This document shows positions 7,763 through 25,409 of a DNA stretch of 64,000 bases, one piece after another. The notes under the pieces were generated by a model that did not search any database, had not been told where the DNA came from, and worked only from the letters and a program-made list of their open reading frames with translations. A program made the translations under genes and the position numbers. This DNA is from Embleya scabrispora DSM 41855 (lineage in GTDB: Bacteria > Actinomycetota > Actinomycetes > Streptomycetales > Streptomycetaceae): the NCBI RefSeq assembly GCF_000372745.1, contig NZ_KB889687.1:1-64000 (forward strand), read 5' to 3'. Each line of letters starts with the position of its first letter. Position 1 is the stretch's first letter.

Positions 7763-8629
7763 ATGCCCGCAACGCAGCCGGGGAGCGGCTCGACGGTTCG
7801 CCGTATTCTCCTCGGTTCCCAGCTTCGCCGTCTGCGCGAAGCGAAGGGGATTTCGCGGGAGGAGGCCGGATACGAGATCCGCGCCTCCGAATCCAAGATC
7901 AGTCGAATGGAACTGGGGCGCGTCAGCTTCAAGGAGCGCGACGTGGCTGATCTCCTCACCATGTACGGCGTGGGCGACGAGACCGAGCGCGCGGCGCTCC
8001 TGGGCCTCGCGGCGGAGGCCAACGCCCAGGGCTGGTGGCACAACTACAACGACATCCTGCCGAGTTGGTTCCAGGTCTACGTGGGCCTGGAGGAGGCCGC
8101 CTCGGTGATCCGCACCTACGAGGTGCAGTTCGTGCCCGGCCTGCTCCAGACCCCGGAGTACGCGCGGGCCGTGGTGATCGCCGGTCAGCCCTCCGCGTCG
8201 GCGGCGGAGGTCGACCGTCGGGTGGGTCTGCGGATGCAGCGACAGTCGATCCTGTACCGCGACAAGCCGCCCAGGTTGTGGGTCGTGCTGGACGAGGCCG
8301 CTCTGCGGCGCCCGATCGGCGGTCGGGACGTGATGCGCGATCAGGTCCGGCACCTGATCGAGATGGCCGCCCTGCCGAACGTCACCATCCAGATCATGCC
8401 GTTCCGGTTCGGCGCGCACGCGGCCGAGGGCGGCCCGTTCCTGTTGTTGCGGTTCCCGGAGAGCGACCTGCCGGACGTGGTCTACCTGGAACAGCTCACG
8501 AGCGCGCTTTATCTGGACAAACGCGACGAGGTCGACGCGTATACCGAGGTCATGGACCGGTTGAGCGTGGACGGCATGCCGCCGGACAAGAGTGTGGATC
8601 TGCTTCAGCGGATCCTGAAGGAGAACTGA
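7763..8629 (+). CDS. XRE-family regulator with DUF5753 domain (WhiJ/AbaA type)
   Basis: A 288-residue DNA-binding protein. The helix-turn-helix spans about residues 16-70 (LGSQLRRLREAKGISREEAGYEIRASESKISRMELG). The DUF5753 region follows from about 100 to 280, with its hallmark FVPGLLQTPEYARA near residue 128. GGAGG lies 8 nt before the ATG. In Streptomyces this class (WhiJ and AbaA homologues) is encoded beside a small DUF397 protein and an anti-sigma-like ATPase and influences development and antibiotic production. Here the DUF397 gene converges on it from 49 nt away. It is the most likely reader of the palindromes at 9039-10046. Confidence 0.92.
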   Translation: MPATQPGSGSTVRRILLGSQLRRLREAKGISREEAGYEIRASESKISRMELGRVSFKERDVADLLTMYGVGDETERAALLGLAAEANAQGWWHNYNDILPSWFQVYVGLEEAASVIRTYEVQFVPGLLQTPEYARAVVIAGQPSASAAEVDRRVGLRMQRQSILYRDKPPRLWVVLDEAALRRPIGGRDVMRDQVRHLIEMAALPNVTIQIMPFRFGAHAAEGGPFLLLRFPESDLPDVVYLEQLTSALYLDKRDEVDAYTEVMDRLSVDGMPPDKSVDLLQRILKEN

Positions 8630-8657
8630 CCCGGGTCGACGTGTGGACCCACCCGGG
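8630..8657. terminator. Hairpin between convergent XRE and DUF397 genes
   Basis: CCCGGGT and ACCCGGG form 7-bp arms with a 14-nt loop directly after the XRE stop. A third GACCCGGG follows at about 8664. No T-run. Confidence 0.5.
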
Positions 8658-8678
8658 CGGAGCGACCCGGGCGGGCTT

Positions 8679-8915
8679 TCACGCGAGCAGGTTGTCGAAG
8701 TCCCCGTCCTTGACCCCGAGGATGAGCGCCTCGATCTCGGCGCGCGTATAGATCAGCGCCGGCCCGTCGGGGTGGCGCGAATTGCGGACCGCGACGTCGC
8801 CGTCCGGCAGCGCAGCCATTTCCACGCAATTGCCTTGCGAGTTGCTCCGGCGACTCTTCTGCCAGGTGACCCCGTCGAGCGCGGTCGCCGATACCCCGTT
8901 GTGCGTTGCCTGCAT
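8679..8915 (-). CDS. DUF397 small protein
   Basis: A 78-residue protein with the family signature WQKSRRSNSQGNCVEMA and the C-terminal VRNSRHPDGPALIYTRAEIEALI. DUF397 proteins are encoded next to WhiJ-like XRE regulators and are thought to bind or modulate them. The start is the ATG of MQATHNG with AGGAG 7 nt upstream. The frame is open for a further 35 codons upstream, but that extension lacks homology and a ribosome binding site. Its upstream region carries one exact copy of the 12-bp palindrome. Confidence 0.9.
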   Translation of the reverse strand: MQATHNGVSATALDGVTWQKSRRSNSQGNCVEMAALPDGDVAVRNSRHPDGPALIYTRAEIEALILGVKDGDFDNLLA

Positions 8916-9038
8916 GACGCTTCTCCTGGACCTCTCGCCGAGCGACCCGACGGCGGTCGCCCGCCCCCCGGTTGCGGCACGTGTCGTTCCTTCGTCCCGG
9001 TCCGTCGCAATTTCTTCCAAAACCGGTCCGACTTACGC

Positions 9039-9067
9039 ATGCACGTGCATCTGACCATGCATATGCA
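9039..9067. promoter_or_regulatory. Paired palindromes upstream of DUF397 gene
   Basis: ATGCACGTGCAT at 9039-9050 is a perfect 12-bp palindrome. TGCATATGCA at 9058-9067 is a perfect 10-bp palindrome. Their centres are 18 bp apart. The 12-mer recurs exactly twice upstream of the ATPase gene, so it is a candidate operator of the WhiJ-type regulator. Confidence 0.6.
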
Positions 9068-9198
9068 GCGTACAACGGTGATGATAGCGCAGCCCGACTT
9101 CACTCACACGGGAGGGCTCATGCATTCCTCAAGGTTTCAAAGGAAGCGTAAAAGCTGCTTAAGCGACGGGGGACGAAACGGGCGTAAGAATGCAGAAA

Positions 9199-9220
9199 AC
9201 CCGTCGAAGGATCGACGGGT
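9199..9220. terminator. Hairpin downstream of ATPase gene
   Basis: Perfect 9-bp stem (ACCCGTCGA and its complement) with loop AGGA. It lies about 130 nt past the ATPase stop, within the low-GC pocket, and is probably that gene's terminator. Confidence 0.6.
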
Positions 9221-9352
9221 AAACGCTTCGCAACCTTAACTTGGATACCGCTGCATTCGGTTGCCGCCGGCGAATGTGAATTAGAACTCTCCGCAAAGCT
9301 GCAACGCTAAGCCTGCAACGCAATGCGGTCCATTCACTGCGGACCGTGTTTG

Positions 9353-9856
9353 TCAGGCCGGTATCTCGAACATCGCCCAGACGACCTTTCCGGTGCGCCG
9401 GCCCATACCGTCCAGCGGGAACCAGCCCCACGAATCACTGAAGCAGCCGACCAGATACAGCCCTCGGCCGGATTCCTCGTCCTCGCCACCGGCTTGGGCC
9501 TCGGGGAGGCTCTCACCGGGATCCTGAACCGCACACATCACTCGCTCACCCTTGCGCAGGAGCGCGAGTTGGATATTGTGCGCGACGTCGGCCGCATCGT
9601 CACGGCCGGCGCCGAGTCCGTGACACAGCGCGTTGGTGACGAGCTCGGACACGACCAGCGCGAGGTCGTCCTCCAGGCACGCGGCGCCCCAGCCGGCGAG
9701 CACCGACTGCGTGAAGTCCCGAGCGGCCTTGACCGACTCGCGACGGGCGGCGAGAGCTTGTATCGCGATATCGGATGTAGGGCCCATATCCCCGGCCAGA
9801 GGCTCCATCCACTGAAACGTCGACGTCCGGAACCCTGCGGGACTCGCGACGGTCAT
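9353..9856 (-). CDS. Anti-sigma-factor-like ATP-binding protein (HATPase_c)
   Basis: A 167-residue single-domain GHKL ATPase of the SpoIIAB/RsbW kind. The N-box is VSELVTNALCHG (about residues 70-81), followed by a G1-like VQDPGE and a G2 box ESGRGLYLV near residue 130. Such proteins bind sigma factors or phosphorylate anti-sigma antagonists. In streptomycetes this form (AbaA orfE-like) is found in WhiJ-type clusters, which matches the neighbours here. GGAGG lies 7 nt before the ATG. Its upstream region holds two exact ATGCACGTGCAT palindromes, implying common control with the DUF397 gene. Confidence 0.92.
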   Translation of the reverse strand: MTVASPAGFRTSTFQWMEPLAGDMGPTSDIAIQALAARRESVKAARDFTQSVLAGWGAACLEDDLALVVSELVTNALCHGLGAGRDDAADVAHNIQLALLRKGERVMCAVQDPGESLPEAQAGGEDEESGRGLYLVGCFSDSWGWFPLDGMGRRTGKVVWAMFEIPA

Positions 9857-13730: not shown

Positions 13731-13874
13731 GGCGGGCGCCGGTGGTGTGGTGCCCGGCGTCCACCGATATGACGGGCTCGGATGGCGGGCGGCCGAACGG
13801 GTGGCCGGAGCGTGGGCCGCTTCATGGCAGACTTCGGCACCGTTCACACCGGTGAGCGAAACGGAGTTTCTGCC

Positions 13875-16352
13875 ATGCGGCCGCTGCACGACGAGGACCC
13901 TTCGAGCGTTGGCGCCTACCGATTGGTGGGCCGGCTCGGCGAAGGGACCACGGCTCGGACCTATCTGGGGGCCGCCCCCGACGACACACCCGTCGTCGTG
14001 CGGGTGATCCGGGCCGACCTCGGGCGTGATCCCGCCTTCCGGGCCCGTTTCGGCGACGAGGTGGACGCTGCCCGGCGGTTGCCCGGCCTGGGCACGGCGG
14101 TGATCCTGGACGCCGACACCACCGGACGTCAGCTCTGGTACGCCACCACCCACCTCCCGGGCCCGACCCTGGAGCAGACGGTGCGCCGGCACGGCCCGTT
14201 GCCCGGCCATTCGCTGCGCGTGCTCGCCGGCGAACTCGCGGCCGCGCTGGGCCGATTGCACGCGGTCGGGCTCCACCACGGCCGACTCGACCCGGGTTCG
14301 GTGCTGCTCGGCCCGGACGGGCCGTGGTTGCCCGGGCTCGGGATCGCGCACGGGTCGGCCGGCTCGTCGGTGACCGCCGACGGCGTGGTGATCGGCACCG
14401 TGCTCGACTCCCCCGGTTTCCGTTCGCCGGAGCAGGTCCGGGATCTGACGGTGGGTCCGCCGAGCGACGTGTTCTCGCTCGGGTCCGTGCTCGCGTTCGC
14501 CGCGACCGGCGTGGGCCCCTTCGATCGGGGTGGCGCGGCGGGCTCGGTGGCCGATCGGGTCGCCGAGGGTGATCCCGGACTCGGCGACGTGCCCGCGTCG
14601 TTGCGCACCCTGATCGCCGCGTGCCTGGTCAAGGACCCCGCGCACCGGCCCGCTCCGGAGGAGGTGGTCCGGGTCGCGGCCGGCACCCCGGGGCCGACCT
14701 GGCTGCCGGCGGCCGGCGCCGCGTGGGTAGCCGAACGGGTGGCCAATCCGTGGGAGCCGCCCGAGCCGATGCCCGGCAGCGAGCCGTACGCGCCGGGCAC
14801 CGTACCGGCCCCGCCGCCCGGCAGCGCGACCGCGTCCGCGCCCGCCGCCTCGGCGTCAGCCTCCGCCGCGGCGGACGCCGCACCCGCGGCGGCACCGGCA
14901 TCGGCCGAGGCGGCGACCCCGGCGGAGCCGGCCGCCGCACCCGAGCCCGCCGCGCCGCCCACACGCGCGGCGGCCTCCTCCCGCACCCGTCGGTCCGGTA
15001 CCCGGGCCAAGTCCCGCCGCGGTTTCCTGGGCGTCGCGGCCGGCGCCGCGGTGCTCGGCGGCGCGGTGGCGGCCTGGGCGCTGAGCCGAGGCGGCGACTC
15101 GCCCAAGGCCACGCCCAAGAAGCCCGTGCCGCCGCCGAGTCCGGTCGCCTCGGCCGGCCCGAGCACGCACGCCTCGGTGCAGGAACTCACCGTCTGGACC
15201 ACCGAGAACCTGGTGCCCGCCGCGCTGCTCGGCGACTTGGGCCTGGAGTTCGGGAAGAGCGGTTCCGGAGTCCGGCTGGGCAGCCGGCTCCAGTCCAGGG
15301 CCGGCTATACCCAGGCTCTGGAGCAGGCACTGCGCGCGGGCCGCGGGCCGGATGTGTTCGAGTTGGACCTGCTCGCCCTGGCCCGGTTCAACGCGGCCGA
15401 CCTGATCATGGACCTGACGCCGCATCAGAGCCGATTCGACGCCAACACCTGGTTCCCCGCCGTGCGCGCCTCGGTCACCTCCGCCGGCCGGATCATGGCG
15501 TTGCCATTGGCCGCGAACGTGCCGGTGGTGCTGTACGACAAGGGGCTGTTCCAGGCCGCACAGGTGGGCATACCCGCCGACCGGGTGACCTGGGTCGCGG
15601 ACCTGGAGAAGTTGCGCCTGGCCAACGCGAGCAACCCCGACTACCGCGCGCTGTACGTACCCGGCGGTGCGTGGCCGATCCTGGGCTCGTGCGTGTGGGA
15701 GGACGACGGCACGATCGCGGTCCAGGAGGGCGACGCGTGGCGCGGCACGCTCGACCTGCCCGGCTCGGTGGAGGGGGCCAGGTTCTTCCGTCACCTGCAG
15801 TCCTACGCGCCGGACGCGGTCGGCGTGGGCAACGACGACCCGGCGATCGTCACCCGTGTGGCCAAGGGCAACGTCGCGTCTGCGATCGCCGATTCGGCGC
15901 TGTACGACGCGGTGGTGGCGGCGAATCCGGCGCTGCGCGCGGTGCTGGGCGCGTTCGCGATCCCGGGTCGGACGGCGGGCAAGCCGGCCGCCGTCGGGGT
16001 GCGCGGCACGGTGCTCGCGGTGTCGGCCTCCAGCCTGTTCAAGGAGGCCGCGATGGAACTGCTGGCGCTGATCGCCACCGAGCGCTGGCGCTCGCGGATC
16101 GCGACCGACGGCCGACTGGTCCCGGTGCGCACCGGCCTGGACCGGGCCTTGCCGCCGGACAATCCGATGATTTCGGCCTCGATCACCGCGCTGCCGGTGG
16201 GCGGGCGGGCGTATCCGGTCGCCCCCGGCTGGTCCGAGCGCCCGCTGGTCGAGCTGTCCAAGCAGACCCTTGCCGGCACCGATCCGCTGGCCGCGGCAGC
16301 CGCCGCGAACACGATCGTGGCGCGCGAGTTCGGGGTGTCACCGCCGGCTTGA
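13875..16352 (+). CDS. Pseudokinase fused to membrane-anchored solute-binding domain
   Basis: An 825-residue fusion. Residues 14-270 follow the bacterial Ser/Thr kinase fold (GEGTTARTYLG, SPEQVRDL, PSDVFSLGSVLAFAATG), but key catalytic residues are lost. The VAIK lysine is Arg43, the HRD motif reads His-Gly-Arg at 135-137, and DFG reads Gly-Leu-Gly at 154-156. A Pro/Ala-rich linker (about 290-370) leads to a twin-arginine-like SRRGFLG and one membrane span (about 384-404). Residues 425-825 form an extracellular sugar-type solute-binding domain (AGRGPDVFELD, MALPLAANVPVVLYDKGLF). ATG start with GGAG 8 nt upstream. The neighbouring gene encodes a paralogue of the C-terminal domain; no permease is nearby. 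Likely an extracellular sensor with a cytoplasmic signalling module. Confidence 0.88.
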   Translation: MRPLHDEDPSSVGAYRLVGRLGEGTTARTYLGAAPDDTPVVVRVIRADLGRDPAFRARFGDEVDAARRLPGLGTAVILDADTTGRQLWYATTHLPGPTLEQTVRRHGPLPGHSLRVLAGELAAALGRLHAVGLHHGRLDPGSVLLGPDGPWLPGLGIAHGSAGSSVTADGVVIGTVLDSPGFRSPEQVRDLTVGPPSDVFSLGSVLAFAATGVGPFDRGGAAGSVADRVAEGDPGLGDVPASLRTLIAACLVKDPAHRPAPEEVVRVAAGTPGPTWLPAAGAAWVAERVANPWEPPEPMPGSEPYAPGTVPAPPPGSATASAPAASASASAAADAAPAAAPASAEAATPAEPAAAPEPAAPPTRAAASSRTRRSGTRAKSRRGFLGVAAGAAVLGGAVAAWALSRGGDSPKATPKKPVPPPSPVASAGPSTHASVQELTVWTTENLVPAALLGDLGLEFGKSGSGVRLGSRLQSRAGYTQALEQALRAGRGPDVFELDLLALARFNAADLIMDLTPHQSRFDANTWFPAVRASVTSAGRIMALPLAANVPVVLYDKGLFQAAQVGIPADRVTWVADLEKLRLANASNPDYRALYVPGGAWPILGSCVWEDDGTIAVQEGDAWRGTLDLPGSVEGARFFRHLQSYAPDAVGVGNDDPAIVTRVAKGNVASAIADSALYDAVVAANPALRAVLGAFAIPGRTAGKPAAVGVRGTVLAVSASSLFKEAAMELLALIATERWRSRIATDGRLVPVRTGLDRALPPDNPMISASITALPVGGRAYPVAPGWSERPLVELSKQTLAGTDPLAAAAAANTIVAREFGVSPPA

Positions 16353-16434
16353 CGGATCTCCCGATCAGCAGCGCGGGGCGCGCGCCCTAGGGTTTGCGGA
16401 ACATCCGTATCCCGCCAACCGGAGGAGCCGCACA

Positions 16435-18102
16435 GTGCCGTCGTGGAACGACGACCCGCAGGTGTCATCGGAGGATGGCGCATCGGCCTACCCGCCCCCT
16501 CGGCCCACCCATGCGCCGATGGCCGTGCCGCCGCCCCCGCAGCCCCCGCAGCCCCCGGCCGGATCGCCTCCGCAACATCCGGCCGGGCCGCCGCCGCAGC
16601 AGTACCCGGGCGGCGCGATACCGCAGTATCCGGCCGGCCCGTCGCCGCAGTATCCGAACGTGCCGCCTCCGCCCGGCTGGGGGCCAACTCCGCCGCCACC
16701 CGGCGGTGGTGGCGGTTCGTCCCGGCGCAAGGTGGTCGTGGCCGGTTCGGTCGCGGCGGTCGTCGCGGCCGGTGGCGGCGTCGCCGCGTGGTTGCTCACC
16801 CGCGGCGACGACAAGGGCGCCGCACCCACACCGACGCCGCGGCCCACCACGCCGGCGCCGGCACCCCCGGTCCCGCCCACTCCGGAGGCGCCCACCGGCG
16901 AGAGCGGCCCGTACACGCTCACGCTGTGGCTGGAGAAGCCGCTGACCCCGGGCGTCGACCAGGCCAGGACGAACGCCGACCTGGCCGCCGCGCTGGTCAA
17001 GGCGGATCCGCTCGGGACCGCCCGCACCGAGGTCCAGGAGATGATCGACAGTCGCAAGCTGGACACCGCGCTGACCGCGGGCAACGGCCCGGACATCTTC
17101 TTGGAGCAGACCTTCACCCTGGCCCGTCGGGTGCGGCGCGGGGACCTGCTCGACCTGACACCGTACGCGAGCCGGTTGAACGTGGATGCCTGGCATCCGG
17201 CGGCCCGGGCCGCATGCACGTTCGAGGGCAGGCTGTACGCGCTGCCGATGGACGTGTACGCACCGGTGGTGGTCTACGACAAGCGGCTGTGCGACCCGGC
17301 CGGATTCACCGTGCCGCGCACTCGGGACGAGTGGATCGCGCAGTTGGACAAGCTCAAGCAGCACTACGCGAGCGACCCGAAGTTCGAGGCACTGCACATG
17401 GTCGGCAAGGCGTGGCCGACGATCACCGCGTGCCTGTACCAGGACGACTGCGAGATAGCCGTGCGCGAGGGCGAGCGCTGGGCCGGACGGCTCGGCAGCC
17501 CGGCGGGCCGCGCGGGCATCACCTTCTACCGGAAGCTCCAGGCGTATTCGACCGCGCCGAAGGACGTCGAGGAGCTCAAGGACCCGGCAGGCCGGGTCAC
17601 CGCCGTGCTCGCGGGGGGCAAGGCGGCGATGATGATCCAGCCCGACTGGATCTTCCCGGAACTGATGCGCTCCTCCCCCGAGACGGCGCGCAACCTGGGT
17701 GCCTTCCCGATGCCCGGCCTCAGTGCGGACAAGCCCGGAGCGGTCGGCGTGTGGGGCGGGGTGCTGGCGGTGTCGGCGAAGACCCCGCACCCGGCGGGCG
17801 CGGTGAACATGCTGCGGGTGCTGGCCTCGGCGACCTGGCAGGAGCGGTGGGCGAACGAGAACGAGACGGTGCCGGCCCTGGCCGGCCTGACCACCACCTC
17901 GGGCAGCACGAACGTGATGCGGCCGGCCACGTTGGTCGCGCTCGGGCAGGGCCGGCCCTACCCGCAGGCGCCCGGTTGGTCGGCGGTACCGCTCAAGGAC
18001 TTCGCCGAGAACGTGTTGGCGAAGGGGCTCGACCCGAGCGCGGCCGGGCGCAGCGCGGACGCCATGATCGCTGCCACCTTCGACAAGGACACCCAGCTCT
18101 GA
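16435..18102 (+). CDS. Membrane-anchored extracellular solute-binding protein with Pro-rich cytoplasmic tail
   Basis: A 555-residue protein. Residues 1-95 are Pro/Gln/Tyr-rich with QYPAGP-type repeats. A twin-Arg segment (SSRRKVVVAG) and a single span (about 100-120) follow, then a Thr/Pro linker. From about 160 to the end it is a family-1 extracellular solute-binding domain (GNGPDIFLEQTFTLARR, LYALPMDVYAPVVVYDKRL, GGKAAMMIQPDWIF). It lacks a lipobox, so it is anchored rather than lipidated. The C-terminal domain is paralogous to that of the preceding pseudokinase fusion. GTG start with GGAGGAG 7 nt upstream; 82 nt separates the two genes. Two strong hairpins follow the stop. Confidence 0.87.
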   Translation: MPSWNDDPQVSSEDGASAYPPPRPTHAPMAVPPPPQPPQPPAGSPPQHPAGPPPQQYPGGAIPQYPAGPSPQYPNVPPPPGWGPTPPPPGGGGGSSRRKVVVAGSVAAVVAAGGGVAAWLLTRGDDKGAAPTPTPRPTTPAPAPPVPPTPEAPTGESGPYTLTLWLEKPLTPGVDQARTNADLAAALVKADPLGTARTEVQEMIDSRKLDTALTAGNGPDIFLEQTFTLARRVRRGDLLDLTPYASRLNVDAWHPAARAACTFEGRLYALPMDVYAPVVVYDKRLCDPAGFTVPRTRDEWIAQLDKLKQHYASDPKFEALHMVGKAWPTITACLYQDDCEIAVREGERWAGRLGSPAGRAGITFYRKLQAYSTAPKDVEELKDPAGRVTAVLAGGKAAMMIQPDWIFPELMRSSPETARNLGAFPMPGLSADKPGAVGVWGGVLAVSAKTPHPAGAVNMLRVLASATWQERWANENETVPALAGLTTTSGSTNVMRPATLVALGQGRPYPQAPGWSAVPLKDFAENVLAKGLDPSAAGRSADAMIAATFDKDTQL

Positions 18103-18320: not shown

Positions 18321-19496
18321 ATGCGGTCCGTCATGTCCGGAAGCCCCGATCCCTCCCGGGCCGATCTGCTCCGCGGCAGCCTCACGGCCGTCGCCCCCGC
18401 CGCGCACGATCTGGTCTCGCACTTCTACGCCCTGCTGTTCCTGCGCCGGCCCGACCTGCGCGAGCTGTTCCCACCGGCCATGGCTCTCCAGCGGGACCGA
18501 CTGCTCACCGCGCTGCTGCGGCTCGGTGCGGGCAGTGACGAACCGCACGAGCTGCGTCGCTTCCTGCGGCAGTTGGGTCGCGACCACCGCAAGTACGGCG
18601 TACTCGACGAGCACTACGAGGCGGTCGGCTCCGCGCTGACCGGCGCGCTGGCCCGCTACCTGGGCACCCGCTGGACGCCCGAACTCCAGGCGGCCTGGCT
18701 GGAGGTGTACACGTGGGCCGCGTCGGTGATGATCGAGGCCGCCGCCGACGACGCCGAGGAGGCCCCGCCCTGGTGGGACGCGGTGATCACCGGTCACGAG
18801 TCGCGCGGGCGGGACATCGCGGTGATCACCGTGCGGCCGGATCGGCCGCTGTCCTATCACCCGGGCCAGCACGTGAGCGTGGAGACGCCTTGGTGGCCCA
18901 GGGTATGGCGGCACTACTCGATCGCCAACGCACCGCGCGTGGACGGCCGGCTGGAACTGCACGTGCGCGCGGTGCCCGCGGGGTGGGTGAGCAACGCGCT
19001 GGTGCACCGGGCCCGGGTCGGCGACCACGTCCGGCTCGGGCCCGCGCGCGGTGGGCTGGTGCTGCGCGGCGAGACGCTGCGCAGCGCGCTGTGCGTCGCC
19101 TCGGGGACCGGCCTGGCGCCGATCAAGGCGCTGGTCCAGCACATGGCCCAGCGGCAGTTGGCCAACCGGGCGCACGTGTTCATCGGCGCGAAGTACGGGG
19201 TGGACCTGTACGACCTGAACGCGCTGTCCGCGATGGCGGAGGTGTATCCGTGGCTGAACGTGATCCCGGCGGTCACCCACGACCGCTCGTTCGCCGGTGA
19301 TCAGGGCGCGCTGCCCGACGTGCTGGCTCGGTACGGGCGCTGGCACGACCACGACGTGTTCGTCAGCGGGTCGGCGGCGATGGTTCGGGCCACCGCACAC
19401 CGGCTGACCGGCGAGCTGGGTGTCGCCCCGCAGCGGCTGCACACCGAGAGTCTGGACGAGATCGCCCAGGGTCCGCGGCTGCTCCAGGGCTGCTGA
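18321..19496 (+). CDS. Flavohaemoglobin (globin-FAD/NAD reductase)
   Basis: A 391-residue two-domain protein. Residues 14-145 are a globin, with proximal haem His89 in LGRDHRKYGVL and B/E-helix segments FYALLFLRRPDLRELFP. Residues 150-390 are a ferredoxin-reductase-type module with FAD motif RHYSIANAP near 201 and NAD motif CVASGTGLAPIKA. Flavohaemoglobins dioxygenate nitric oxide to nitrate. This form is somewhat shorter in the reductase part than E. coli Hmp. Two ATG codons, at 18321 and 18333, are possible starts. An FdhF/YdeP oxidoreductase follows after 89 nt, fitting a redox or nitrosative-stress context. Confidence 0.9.
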   Translation: MRSVMSGSPDPSRADLLRGSLTAVAPAAHDLVSHFYALLFLRRPDLRELFPPAMALQRDRLLTALLRLGAGSDEPHELRRFLRQLGRDHRKYGVLDEHYEAVGSALTGALARYLGTRWTPELQAAWLEVYTWAASVMIEAAADDAEEAPPWWDAVITGHESRGRDIAVITVRPDRPLSYHPGQHVSVETPWWPRVWRHYSIANAPRVDGRLELHVRAVPAGWVSNALVHRARVGDHVRLGPARGGLVLRGETLRSALCVASGTGLAPIKALVQHMAQRQLANRAHVFIGAKYGVDLYDLNALSAMAEVYPWLNVIPAVTHDRSFAGDQGALPDVLARYGRWHDHDVFVSGSAAMVRATAHRLTGELGVAPQRLHTESLDEIAQGPRLLQGC

Positions 19497-19585
19497 GCTG
19501 CGGACACTCGACCACGGGGGCGTAACGTACGGGGCACCAGGGTCGTGTCGAAGCGACCGGTTCGAACAGCAGCAGGAGCACCCGC

Positions 19586-21892
19586 ATGGTCAGCAAGCCG
19601 CCCGTGAACGACGTCGGCGACGAGGGCCTCGTGATCGGCCCGCCCAAGGAGTACGCGGCCGGGCTGCCCGCCGTCGCCTGGTCACTGCGCCATGCCGGCC
19701 GTCAGATGGGGGTCAAGCGCAGCCTGCTGACGCTGGTTCAGGTCAACCAGAAGCAGGGTTTCGACTGCCCCGGGTGCGCGTGGCCCGAGCCGAACCACCG
19801 CAGCGTCGCCGAGTTCTGCGAGAACGGCGCGAAGGCGGTCGCCGAGGAGGCCACCGTGCGCCGGGTCGGCGCGGACTTCTTCGCCGCGCACCCGGTCGCC
19901 GAGTTGGCCGACAAGTCGGACTACTGGCTGGGCCAGCAGGGCCGGCTGACCGAGCCGATGTACCTCGCCGAGGGCGCCTCGCACTACGCGCCGATCTCGT
20001 GGGAGGACGCGTTCGGGGTGGTCGCCGAGGAGTTGACGGCGCTGGACTCGCCACACCGGGCGGCGTTCTACACGTCGGGCCGCACCAGCAACGAGGCCGC
20101 GTTCGTGTACCAGTTGTTCGTGCGCGCGTTCGGCACGAACAACCTGCCGGACTGCTCCAACATGTGCCACGAGTCGAGCGGTTCGGCGCTGACCCAGACG
20201 CTCGGGGTCGGCAAGGGCAGCGTGTCGCTGGAGGACCTGTATCAGGCCGACCTGATCTTCGTGGTGGGCCAGAATCCGGGCACCAACCACCCGCGGATGT
20301 TGTCCGCGTTGGAGAAGGCCAAGCAGGCGGGCGCCTCGATCGTGGCGGTCAACCCGTTGCCCGAGGCGGGACTGCTGCGGTTCAAGAATCCGCAGAAGGT
20401 GTCCGGCATACTCGGCTCGGGCACCCGGTTGACCGACGAGTTCGCGCAGATCCGTCTGAACGGCGACCTCGCGCTGTTCCGAGCGCTGAACCGGTTGCTG
20501 CTCGAAGCCGAGGACGCCGCGCCGGGCACCGTGCTCGATCGTGCGTTCATCAACGAATACACGCACGGCTTCGAGGAGTTCGCTGCGGACGTGCGAACCA
20601 CGCCGTGGGCCGACGTGCTGGAGGCAACCGGGCTCGCGCGCGAGCAGATCGAGCGCATCCATCGCCGGGTGCTCGACTCGCCGCGGATCGTGGTGTGTTG
20701 GGCGATGGGCCTGACCCAGCACAAGAACTCGGTGCCGACCATCCGCGAGGTGGTCAACTTCCTGCTCCTGCGCGGCAATGTCGGCCGGCCGGGCGCCGGG
20801 GTGTGCCCGGTGCGCGGGCACAGCAACGTGCAGGGCGACCGCACGATGGGCATCTACGAGAAGCCCTCGGCGGCGTTCCTGGACGCGTTGGAGAAGGAGT
20901 TCGGCTTCGCCCCGCCGCGCGAGCACGGGCACGACGTGGTGGACACGATCCGAGCGATGCGCGACGGCGAGGTCGAGGTGTTCGTCGCGGTGGGCGGCAA
21001 CTTCGTCTCGGCGACACCGGACACCACGGCGACCGAGGCCGCGTTGCGGGCCACCCGGCTGACCGTCCAGGTCTCCACCAAGCTCAATCGCTCGCATGCG
21101 GTCACCGGCCGGCGGGCGCTGATCCTGCCCACGCTGGGTCGTACCGAGCAGGACCGGTTCGTCACGGTCGAGGACTCGATGAGCGCGGTGCACATGTCGC
21201 GCGGGAAGTTGCCGCCGGCCTCGCCGCACCTGCGCTCCGAGGTGGCGATCGTGTGCGGGCTCGCCGAGCGGGTGCTGGGTGCTCCGGAGCGGGGCGATCA
21301 GGGGCGGGGCGATCGGGTGTCGGTGCCCTGGCGCGACTTCGCGCGCGACTACGACCTGATCCGGGATCGCATCGAGCGGGTGATCCCGGGCTTCACCGAC
21401 TTCAATCGGCGGGTGCGCGAGCCCGGCGGCTTCGTCCTGCCGCACGGGCCGCGCGACGCGCGGACGTTCCCGACCACGACCGGCAAGGCGAACTTCTCCC
21501 GCAACGACCTCGCGGTGCTGCGGGTGCCCGCGGGCCGGCTGATCCTGCAGACGGTTCGCTCGCACGACCAGTACAACACCACGATCTACGGCTTGGACGA
21601 CCGTTATCGCGGGATCAAGCAGGGCCGTCGGGTGGTCTTCGTGAACCCGACCGACCTGGCCGAGCTCGGCATCGCGGACGGTGCGCTGGTCGACCTGGTC
21701 GGCGAATGGAGCGATGGGACCGAGCGGCGGGCGCCGTCGTTCAAGGTGGTGTCCTACGACACCGCCGCAGGCTGCTGCGCGGCCTACTTCCCCGAGACCA
21801 ACGTGCTGGTGCCGCTGGACAGCACGGCGGACGAAAGCAACACCCCGACCTCGAAGTCGATCGTGATCCGGCTGGAGCCGCGATCGAGCTGA
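19586..21892 (+). CDS. FdhF/YdeP-family molybdopterin oxidoreductase
   Basis: A 768-residue member of the DMSO-reductase superfamily related to YdeP and FdhF. Conserved segments include FDCPGCAWPEPNHR near residue 58, YTSGRTSNEAAFVYQLF, and SNMCHESSGSALTQTLGVGKG around residue 190, where the molybdenum-ligand region of the family lies. GQNPGTNHPRML and GNVGRPGAGVCPVRGHSNVQGDRTMG are also typical. Members bind bis-MGD, and their physiological substrates are poorly defined; E. coli YdeP contributes to acid resistance. AGGAG lies 8 nt before the ATG. No FdhD or dedicated electron-transfer subunit is adjacent. Confidence 0.92.
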   Translation: MVSKPPVNDVGDEGLVIGPPKEYAAGLPAVAWSLRHAGRQMGVKRSLLTLVQVNQKQGFDCPGCAWPEPNHRSVAEFCENGAKAVAEEATVRRVGADFFAAHPVAELADKSDYWLGQQGRLTEPMYLAEGASHYAPISWEDAFGVVAEELTALDSPHRAAFYTSGRTSNEAAFVYQLFVRAFGTNNLPDCSNMCHESSGSALTQTLGVGKGSVSLEDLYQADLIFVVGQNPGTNHPRMLSALEKAKQAGASIVAVNPLPEAGLLRFKNPQKVSGILGSGTRLTDEFAQIRLNGDLALFRALNRLLLEAEDAAPGTVLDRAFINEYTHGFEEFAADVRTTPWADVLEATGLAREQIERIHRRVLDSPRIVVCWAMGLTQHKNSVPTIREVVNFLLLRGNVGRPGAGVCPVRGHSNVQGDRTMGIYEKPSAAFLDALEKEFGFAPPREHGHDVVDTIRAMRDGEVEVFVAVGGNFVSATPDTTATEAALRATRLTVQVSTKLNRSHAVTGRRALILPTLGRTEQDRFVTVEDSMSAVHMSRGKLPPASPHLRSEVAIVCGLAERVLGAPERGDQGRGDRVSVPWRDFARDYDLIRDRIERVIPGFTDFNRRVREPGGFVLPHGPRDARTFPTTTGKANFSRNDLAVLRVPAGRLILQTVRSHDQYNTTIYGLDDRYRGIKQGRRVVFVNPTDLAELGIADGALVDLVGEWSDGTERRAPSFKVVSYDTAAGCCAAYFPETNVLVPLDSTADESNTPTSKSIVIRLEPRSS

Positions 21893-24473: not shown

Positions 24474-25409
24474 GTGACGGTGATCCGGCGGGTGCGACGC
24501 GCGGTGGCGCTGCTGCTGCCGGTCGTGCTGCTCGCGGCCTGCGGGTCCGGATCGCCCACCGGGCCCCGGCTGTTGTTCGCCGAGGACTTCACCGGTTCGA
24601 GGTTGGCCGCCGAGCGCTGGGTGACCTGCTACGACTGGAACGTGGACGGCTGCACCAACGCGGGCAACGGGGAGCAGCAGTGGTACCGGCCCGAGCAGGT
24701 CCGGGTGAGCGGGGGCCAGGCGATCCTGAGCGCGGTGCGCCGGCCCACGCGCGGCGCGAACCACGTCGTGTACCCGTGGGCGTCGGGCATGGTCTCGACC
24801 GGGCGGCCGAGTTGGTCCGGCCGCCCGCGCTTCACCTTCACCTACGGCCGGGTCGAGGCCGAGTTGCTGATGCCGCGCGCGCCGAACTCGTTCCCGGCGT
24901 TCTGGCTGATGCCCGCCTCCCGGTACACACCGCCGGAGGTGGATGTGGTCGAGCTGATCGGCGCGGACGATCGGGCCAGGTCCACGGTGCACTGGCGCGA
25001 TCCGGATGGTCGTCCGCAGGCGTGGGTGCACGAGTCGCCCGCGCGCGACTGGTCGGACCGGTTCCACCACTTCACCCTCGACTGGGCGCCGGATCGCCTG
25101 ACCTGGTGGATCGACGGCGAGCAGGTGTTCACGGTGACCGATCCGGCGCGCGTCCCGAACGAACCGATGGAGGTGCTGTTCACGCTCGCGATGGGCTATC
25201 CGGAGCCGGTGCCGGATCACGTACACGACGCCGAGCTGCGGATCCGATCGGTGCGGGTGTGGGCACCTCGAGTGCGGGTCCGCCGCCGACGGGTCGCTCA
25301 CCGGGTCACCCGGTCCGGTCCGCCACCGGATCGCGGTGTCCCTGCCAGGGATCGGGATGTCCGCGCCGGCGCGCCCGGGTCCGCCGCCAGGCCCGCCAGC
25401 CCAGCGTGA
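24474..25409 (+). CDS. Glycoside hydrolase family 16 lipoprotein
   Basis: A 311-residue exported protein. The N-terminus is a lipoprotein signal peptide (RRVRRAVALLLPVVLLAACGSG, lipobox LAAC). The GH16 beta-sandwich occupies about residues 35-265, with the catalytic ExDxxE motif present as PEVDVVELIG near residue 160. GH16 enzymes cleave beta-1,3/1,4-glucans, galactans and related polymers. Here it probably trims or releases the locus-encoded polysaccharide outside the membrane. GTG start. The final 45 or so residues are Arg/Pro-rich and overlap the deacetylase gene on the other strand, which suggests stop-codon loss. Confidence 0.87.
   Translation: MTVIRRVRRAVALLLPVVLLAACGSGSPTGPRLLFAEDFTGSRLAAERWVTCYDWNVDGCTNAGNGEQQWYRPEQVRVSGGQAILSAVRRPTRGANHVVYPWASGMVSTGRPSWSGRPRFTFTYGRVEAELLMPRAPNSFPAFWLMPASRYTPPEVDVVELIGADDRARSTVHWRDPDGRPQAWVHESPARDWSDRFHHFTLDWAPDRLTWWIDGEQVFTVTDPARVPNEPMEVLFTLAMGYPEPVPDHVHDAELRIRSVRVWAPRVRVRRRRVAHRVTRSGPPPDRGVPARDRDVRAGAPGSAARPASPA

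Follow-up and report, generated by a model that had tools for sequence, protein, structure and literature searches.

A kinase fold and a solute-binding domain in one membrane protein

The window analysed here, a stretch of 64,000 nucleotides from Embleya scabrispora DSM 41855 (contig NZ_KB889687.1, positions 1 to 64,000 of the forward strand; contig C126 in our numbering of this 11.4 Mb genome, G000, of the Embleya group of the Streptomycetaceae), contains two adjacent genes that we term A and B. Protein A joins a kinase-fold domain and a solute-binding domain in one membrane protein, and B is a related anchored solute-binding protein (SBP) without a kinase domain by Pfam (Table 1). Both genes lie on the + strand, 82 bases apart; GGAG (13863-13866) precedes the ATG of A (13875) and GGAGGAG the GTG of B (16435). 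An in-frame ATG at 13824 is a possible alternative start of A, and the stretch between the two ATG codons is also conserved in two relatives (G004 and Embleya hyalina, G020).

Table 1. Genes A and B and the features assigned to their products (window coordinates)
Feature	Position	Strand	Basis
Gene A, 825 residues: putative pseudokinase, linker, membrane anchor, SBP domain	13875..16352	+	open reading frame, Pfam, A-versus-B comparison
Protein-kinase-fold domain of A (Pfam Pkinase)	13917..14669	+	Pfam, AlphaFold model, structure matches
Arg43 (VVVR) in place of the beta3 (VAIK) Lys	14001..14003	+	motif alignment
Glu62, retained alphaC Glu	14058..14060	+	motif alignment
His-Gly-Arg in place of HRD, residues 135-137	14277..14285	+	motif alignment; HGR in 7/7 A orthologues
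Gly-Leu-Gly in place of DFG, residues 154-156	14334..14342	+	motif alignment
Ala/Pro-rich cytoplasmic linker of A (21% Pro)	14760..15017	+	composition
Membrane anchor of A, twin-arginine motif SRRGFL ahead (Tat-like)	15012..15083	+	sequence, TAT-model scans
Extracytoplasmic MalE-type solute-binding domain of A	15177..16349	+	AlphaFold model, structure matches, Pfam
Gene B, 555 residues: kinase-less anchored solute-binding protein	16435..18102	+	open reading frame, Pfam
Pro-rich cytoplasmic stalk of B (37% Pro, 98 residues)	16435..16728	+	composition
Membrane anchor of B, from residue 99	16729..16797	+	sequence; resembles type C anchor
Solute-binding domain of B (SBP_bac_1)	16909..18099	+	Pfam, trees

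A full-length Pfam scan of A returned Pkinase (48 bits) and missed the solute-binding domain, which was recognized as SBP_bac_8 (47 bits) when scanned alone; B matched SBP_bac_1 with 82 bits, and the two proteins share a region of 38% identity (E 2.5e-71). The AlphaFold model of the A kinase domain is confident (predicted local distance difference test, pLDDT, 88), and its best solved matches are PknA (Z 27.6, root mean square deviation 3.1 over 254 residues) and PknB (Z 26.0); by sequence the domain is nearest to PknB (3f61, E 6e-21). As modelled, it is a PknB-like bilobal protein-kinase fold, and the structural motifs SPEQ (residue 184) and SDVFSLG (residue 197) are present. A single membrane anchor, beginning at residue 382, leads to the solute-binding domain at about residue 435, whose model (pLDDT 92.9) best matches MalE, CbpB and a beta-glycoside-binding protein (Z 40-42), so that the label 'sugar-type' is sound as judged from the predicted fold. 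This layout agrees with a previous reading of the letters alone (hereafter the sequence-only reading), which had proposed for A a kinase-fold N-terminus with Arg43, His-Gly-Arg and Gly-Leu-Gly at the catalytic motifs, one span and a sugar-type domain outside, and for B the same domain on a Pro-rich stalk; its residues and coordinates were correct, and the alphaC Glu can be added to the motifs that A has kept.

Catalytic residues and selection on the kinase domain

The three residues by which an active PknB-like Ser/Thr kinase is recognized, the beta3 Lys, the HRD Asp and the DFG Asp, are all absent from A of the window. We found A in all four Embleya-group genomes searched (our own, G004, G031 and E. 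hyalina) and in all three of the Yinghuangia group, which include Yinghuangia soli and Y. seranimata. The reading frame is open in the six copies seen whole; in G031, where A runs off the edge of contig C1502, only its kinase part was recovered and no SBP part was found. We compared motifs over 48 rows, comprising seven of A, two of one gene for a related receptor that we call type C (described below) and 39 of other kinases. Every A row has HGR for HRD and a degenerate Gly loop, GEGxxA/S; the alphaC Glu is intact in all seven. In the four Embleya rows Arg stands at the beta3 Lys position and DFG is replaced by GLG, HVG, HVG or TFG, which puts Gly, His or Thr at the Asp position; the three Yinghuangia rows retain the beta3 Lys and DLG beside their HGR. 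Among the 39 other kinases, the triad is complete in 35, three (L016, L018, L019) are partly unreadable because of gaps or cut frames, and one (L017) is substituted. Compared with type C, the six A copies aligned (all but that of G031) also have four extra residues in common, inserted close to the end of the activation loop.

L017 (G000:C128:63637-64686), from our own genome, has a kinase fold with MAVR, HGDL and GFG, and by these motifs is likely another pseudokinase.

The recurrence of these degenerate residues in orthologues is hard to explain by chance. The dead kinase of the sequence-only reading is upheld in that HGR occurs in all seven orthologues and none has a fully intact triad, but the full set of substitutions does not extend to the three Yinghuangia copies; an intact kinase-SBP does exist, as a paralogue (type C) and not as an orthologue of A. 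The catalytic Asp is absent from both genera, so by parsimony HRD most simply became HGR before their split, and the loss of the beta3 Lys and DFG Asp would be a later step specific to Embleya.

To compare constraint we used ratios of non-synonymous to synonymous substitution (dN/dS), which, as simple pairwise Nei-Gojobori estimates in GC-rich DNA, are of use for comparison alone. For the A kinase domain the values were 0.26, 0.27 and 0.24 for our own genome against G004, E. hyalina and the G031 fragment, respectively. Against G004 and E. hyalina, respectively, they were 0.54 and 0.44 for the A linker, 0.21 and 0.22 for the A SBP, 0.47 and 0.51 for the B SBP, and, for two genes downstream of B, 0.21 and 0.22 (flavohaemoglobin) and 0.12 and 0.13 (molybdopterin oxidoreductase). 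Between G004 and E. hyalina the A kinase domain gave 0.11 and the B SBP 0.37.

These values bear on a first alternative, that A began as an ordinary kinase-SBP receptor and is decaying, its kinase a relic whose loss is already complete in B. Motif loss is indeed graded, with Lys and DLG present in Yinghuangia and neither in Embleya, and a kinase-less B is a plausible end state of such a process. However, the frame is open in all six copies seen whole, HGR is identical in all seven, and the kinase-domain ratios of 0.26-0.27 lie near those of the flavohaemoglobin and below those of A's own linker. On this conservation and the dN/dS values we do not favour decay alone, which we consider improbable. 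Because its kinase domain evolves at a dN/dS of about 0.26, A looks like a maintained, conserved pseudokinase whose catalytic Asp is gone from all seven orthologues.

A second alternative is that A retains a non-standard activity, for instance as a nucleotide-binding switch or as the catalyst of another kind of transfer. In its favour, Lys, alphaC Glu and DLG are all retained by the Yinghuangia proteins. A review of bacterial pseudokinases (PMC12599244) reports nucleotide binding by some pseudokinases in which Arg has replaced the beta3 Lys, and cites SelO and SidJ as showing new chemistry. Against this, the Embleya proteins have also lost the DFG Asp and the Gly loop is degenerate in every copy; we assign this alternative a low probability.

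Type C receptors and the origin of B

Two genomes carry a receptor of the same layout with intact kinase motifs, type C. The Y. seranimata protein (L053:12186-15041; 952 residues), encoded about 4.4 kb downstream of A, has VAIK, HRDLKPSN and DFG intact; beyond the kinase come an anchor with SRRRF and an SBP belonging to the A/B clade. The other, from Embleya sp. NBC_00888 (L175), has VALK, HRDLKPSN and DFG, lies on a 5.7-Mb replicon and was found through a plasmid collection. We observed in a tree of 25 SBP rows that A (support 100/99), B (100/100) and C (97/94) each form one clade, and that A, B and C together stand apart (100/100) from 13 ordinary SBPs, which are 13 of the 33 included in a larger tree of 44 rows. 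B grouped with C in both, with support of 96/92 in the 25-row tree (two C rows) and 95/87 in the 44-row tree (one C row). The stalk and anchor of B also resemble the linker and anchor of C. As B groups with C on the SBP tree, B probably arose from a receptor of type C through loss of the kinase domain. The simplest history compatible with the sequences would begin with a kinase-SBP ancestor, from which catalysis was lost by point mutation in A and the whole kinase domain was lost in B. One SBP clade would then hold a natural series of an intact kinase (C), a partly dead one (Yinghuangia A), a fully dead one (Embleya A) and one removed altogether (B).

Several results weigh against this history and against a fixed partnership of A and B. 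In the 25-row tree, neither A+C (p 0.058) nor A+B (p 0.059) was firmly rejected, each being 6 log units worse, and the 44-row tree gave p 0.12 for A+B. The 25-row tree also came with warnings: the branch of Y. seranimata C is long, and the composition of some A rows is unusual. Two kinase trees, built after removal of 5 and 12 rows, recovered A as one clade (100/99) and left its origin unsettled: they did not settle the closest active relative of the A kinase, and did not reject a clade of A with C (p 0.37 and 0.36, respectively). A Trp at a GPW-type position is absent from six of six A proteins and present in all four B and both C; A thus lacks a residue found in B, C and some ordinary SBPs, and its pocket may be altered relative to theirs. 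Finally, B was not found beside A at any of the three Yinghuangia loci.

We take the GPW-type position to be W230 of MalE. A ligand prediction from this Trp was dropped, since it is also absent from 23 of the 33 ordinary SBPs.

Gene B directly follows A in three Embleya genomes and stands at a contig edge in G031. The gene pair noted by the sequence-only reading is seen intact in these three Embleya genomes and not at the Yinghuangia loci, where the lack of a B beside A gives no support to an obligate pair; taken together with the faster-changing B SBP (dN/dS 0.47-0.51), it makes the obligate two-protein sensor of that reading unlikely as a general rule. In E. hyalina two contigs (C57 and C58; L058, L059) carry A and B with the same coordinates and the same scores, probably an assembly duplication.

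The matches listed from 200 genomes of the family and 391 of the order comprised Embleya-group and Yinghuangia members of this SBP clade and ordinary SBPs alone, and in a collection of genome contigs the clade was again confined to these two groups, beside ordinary SBPs. The plasmid collection later added type C of NBC_00888, and the clade may reach beyond the genomes searched. Our check for kinases beside SBP loci covered flanks of about 1.5 kb, in some cases up to 7 kb, and may have missed a kinase separated from its SBP by a very long linker.

Transporter context and neighbouring genes

None of the 126 matches to the ABC (ATP-binding cassette) permease domain BPD_transp_1 in the genome lies on the contig of A and B, as the sequence-only reading had said of the locus, and this weighs against a direct transport role, though an unlinked permease may exist. 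A third alternative is framed around such a permease: A and B would be anchored substrate-capture proteins for an unlinked sugar importer, with their cytoplasmic parts mere tethers. The SBP fold of A is that of importer SBPs, the genome holds those 126 permease domains, and the ordinary SBP relatives are lipoprotein-like, one of them (contig C172 of the same genome) lying beside two permease genes. Neither A nor B, however, shows the lipoprotein-like start of these relatives; a tether has no need of the kinase fold that is conserved in A, and related proteins couple SBPs to kinases with intact motifs. We regard a capture role of this kind as quite unlikely.

A search of the same genome with A gave 38 matches (150 of 211 candidates scored), none on the contig besides A and B, so a partner kinase of A would probably be encoded elsewhere in the genome.

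Just downstream of B lie genes for a flavohaemoglobin and a molybdopterin oxidoreductase (window 18321-21892). These two genes follow the locus in Embleya, and the same two are found downstream of A in Y. seranimata (the Yinghuangia oxidoreductase was judged by eye). A GH16-family gene whose product starts like a lipoprotein (window 24474-25409) lies some 6 kb downstream of B and is a possible, unlinked hint to beta-glucan ligands. Upstream of A is a cluster of helix-turn-helix (HTH)/DUF5753, DUF397 and HATPase_c_2 genes (window 7763-9856).

Membrane anchors and possible Tat export

The anchors of A and C carry a motif like that of twin-arginine translocation (Tat) signals. RRxF[LI] precedes a Gly/Ala-rich segment in all six readable A anchors and both C anchors, and the best 20-residue Kyte-Doolittle hydrophobicity of these eight rows is 1.44-1.94; 32 other kinases have a median of 2.26 and a range, 1.73-3.16, that overlaps that of A and C. 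Low hydrophobicity and positive charge behind the span have been linked to release from Sec (PMC5449189). Weak matches to TAT-type models (E up to 1) were obtained for five of the six A and C anchors scanned, with none in A of Y. soli; the single match above cut-off was C of NBC_00888 (PF10399, 25.0 versus 24 bits), and the B anchor gave no match to these models. Pfam scans of 13 other kinase anchors yielded two weak TAT matches (L159, L172), and RR motifs also precede the anchor in several other kinases. We noted Tat-like anchors at loci L053, L054, L055 and L175, and similar RR-Leu anchors in the sensor kinases L159, L166, L172 and L004.

From these features we considered a bolder proposal: the sugar-binding domain of A and C would fold in the cytoplasm and be exported by Tat through an internal twin-arginine anchor, placed hundreds of residues after the folded N-terminal kinase domain, with no earlier span, and Embleya A and B would have lost kinase activity twice, by point mutation in A and domain loss in B, and signal purely by docking. 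This combination is rather unlikely, and internal Tat export of receptor ectodomains is best regarded as a possible lead. According to the portion of the source consulted, Tat signals ordinarily have free N-termini and the signal of the actinobacterial Rieske protein is internal, behind two spans (PMC5449189); an internal Tat anchor behind a folded domain without an earlier span would, if true, be a new topology among those compared.

A proposed receptor pseudokinase with a kinase-less relative

We favour, at about even odds, the reading that A is a pseudokinase receptor whose signal passes through docking, and that B is a kinase-less descendant of a C-type receptor. Outside the cell, the sugar-type SBP of A, related to the lipoprotein SBPs of ABC importers, would bind a ligand. 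Inside, A would present a PknB-like fold without the residues for normal phosphotransfer, the fold apparently being kept by selection, as the dN/dS values suggest. Ligand binding would probably shift the pseudokinase domain or change how it pairs, and the domain could then dock to, or allosterically control, an active Ser/Thr kinase or another partner. By analogy with a precedent for SBP-kinase coupling (GlnH-GlnX-PknG) and one for docking (MviN), both discussed below, the favoured arrangement is a receptor pseudokinase with a partner that would sense whether ligand is bound. Because Yinghuangia has A with no B next to it, and B evolves under weaker constraint, we treat B as accessory: speculatively, a co-receptor, ligand trap or modulator of A. 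An A-B heterodimer, as suggested by the sequence-only reading, may form in Embleya.

The same review describes bacterial pseudokinases as conserved yet largely unexplored by experiment (PMC12599244), and this receptor family raises a testable question, namely whether a sugar signal can cross the membrane through a kinase fold that does not phosphorylate.

Comparison with known systems

The pseudokinase classes in the accessible part of that review (PMC12599244) offer partial counterparts to A. ActPs1 has all three catalytic residues substituted, often lacks the G-helix and often carries a C-terminal PQQ domain; the triad of A is fully substituted in Embleya and not in Yinghuangia, its sensor domain is an SBP rather than PQQ, and helix 225-231 of the model may be the G-helix. 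ActPs2 was set aside, because its HRD Asp is changed to Asn and most members have an activation-loop insertion of about 250 residues, whereas A has Asp to Arg and an insertion of four residues. So was ActPs3, whose hallmark is an activation-loop deletion, the loop of A being four residues longer than that of type C. Judged by these descriptions, A may belong to ActPs1 or to an unlisted Act1-like group. Table 1 of PMC12599244 includes an Act1 protein of Nocardia whose motifs read VVVR, Hqrl and EIG, a signature similar to that of A and no more than a lead. The words 'solute', 'substrate-binding' and 'SBP' gave no hit in a word search of the review text available to us, and no pseudokinase-SBP fusion turned up among the papers listed from a literature search that took in few subscription papers.

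MviN (ActPs3) resembles A in being a membrane-linked actinobacterial pseudokinase, and it acts by docking: it is phosphorylated by PknB and recruits FhaA (PMC12599244). Unlike A, it has no SBP named in the available part of that source. The GlnH-GlnX-PknG system couples an SBP to Ser/Thr kinase signalling; it is made up of three proteins, its ligand is an amino acid and its kinase is active (PMC6069109, PMC9769921), whereas in A an SBP and a dead kinase share one chain. The SBP of A matches MalE, GacH and beta-glycoside-binding proteins (3uor, 3k01, 7c6x) over the whole domain (Z 38-42); those are free sugar-binding proteins, several of which are named as parts of transporters, whereas A carries its SBP on one chain with a kinase fold and has no permease gene nearby.

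Fusion of an SBP with a kinase is itself an established design. Three of the ten kinase proteins of these genomes examined by Pfam carry other SBP families, all with intact triads: SBP_bac_5 (L154), SBP_bac_3 (L159) and Peripla_BP_4, the last in our own genome (L008; G000:C115:35820-37082). The design is known and named by NCBI: WP_112443064.1 of Streptomyces cadmiisoli, a 'bifunctional serine/threonine-protein kinase/ABC transporter substrate-binding protein', has, like A, an N-terminal kinase followed by an SBP. Its kinase scores 132 bits against Pkinase and its SBP is Peripla_BP_6, as against the degenerate kinase (48 bits) and MalE-type SBP of A. Two such bifunctional genes are adjacent on the S. 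cadmiisoli plasmid NZ_CP030074.1 (L176), a tandem like the one from which A and B may have arisen, whereas A's neighbour B has no kinase. Type C has the same layout as A, a similar RRRF anchor and an SBP of the same clade, and differs in keeping VAIK or VALK, HRDLKPSN and DFG. What is new here, set beside these systems, is the conserved dead-kinase version of the design together with its kinase-less twin.

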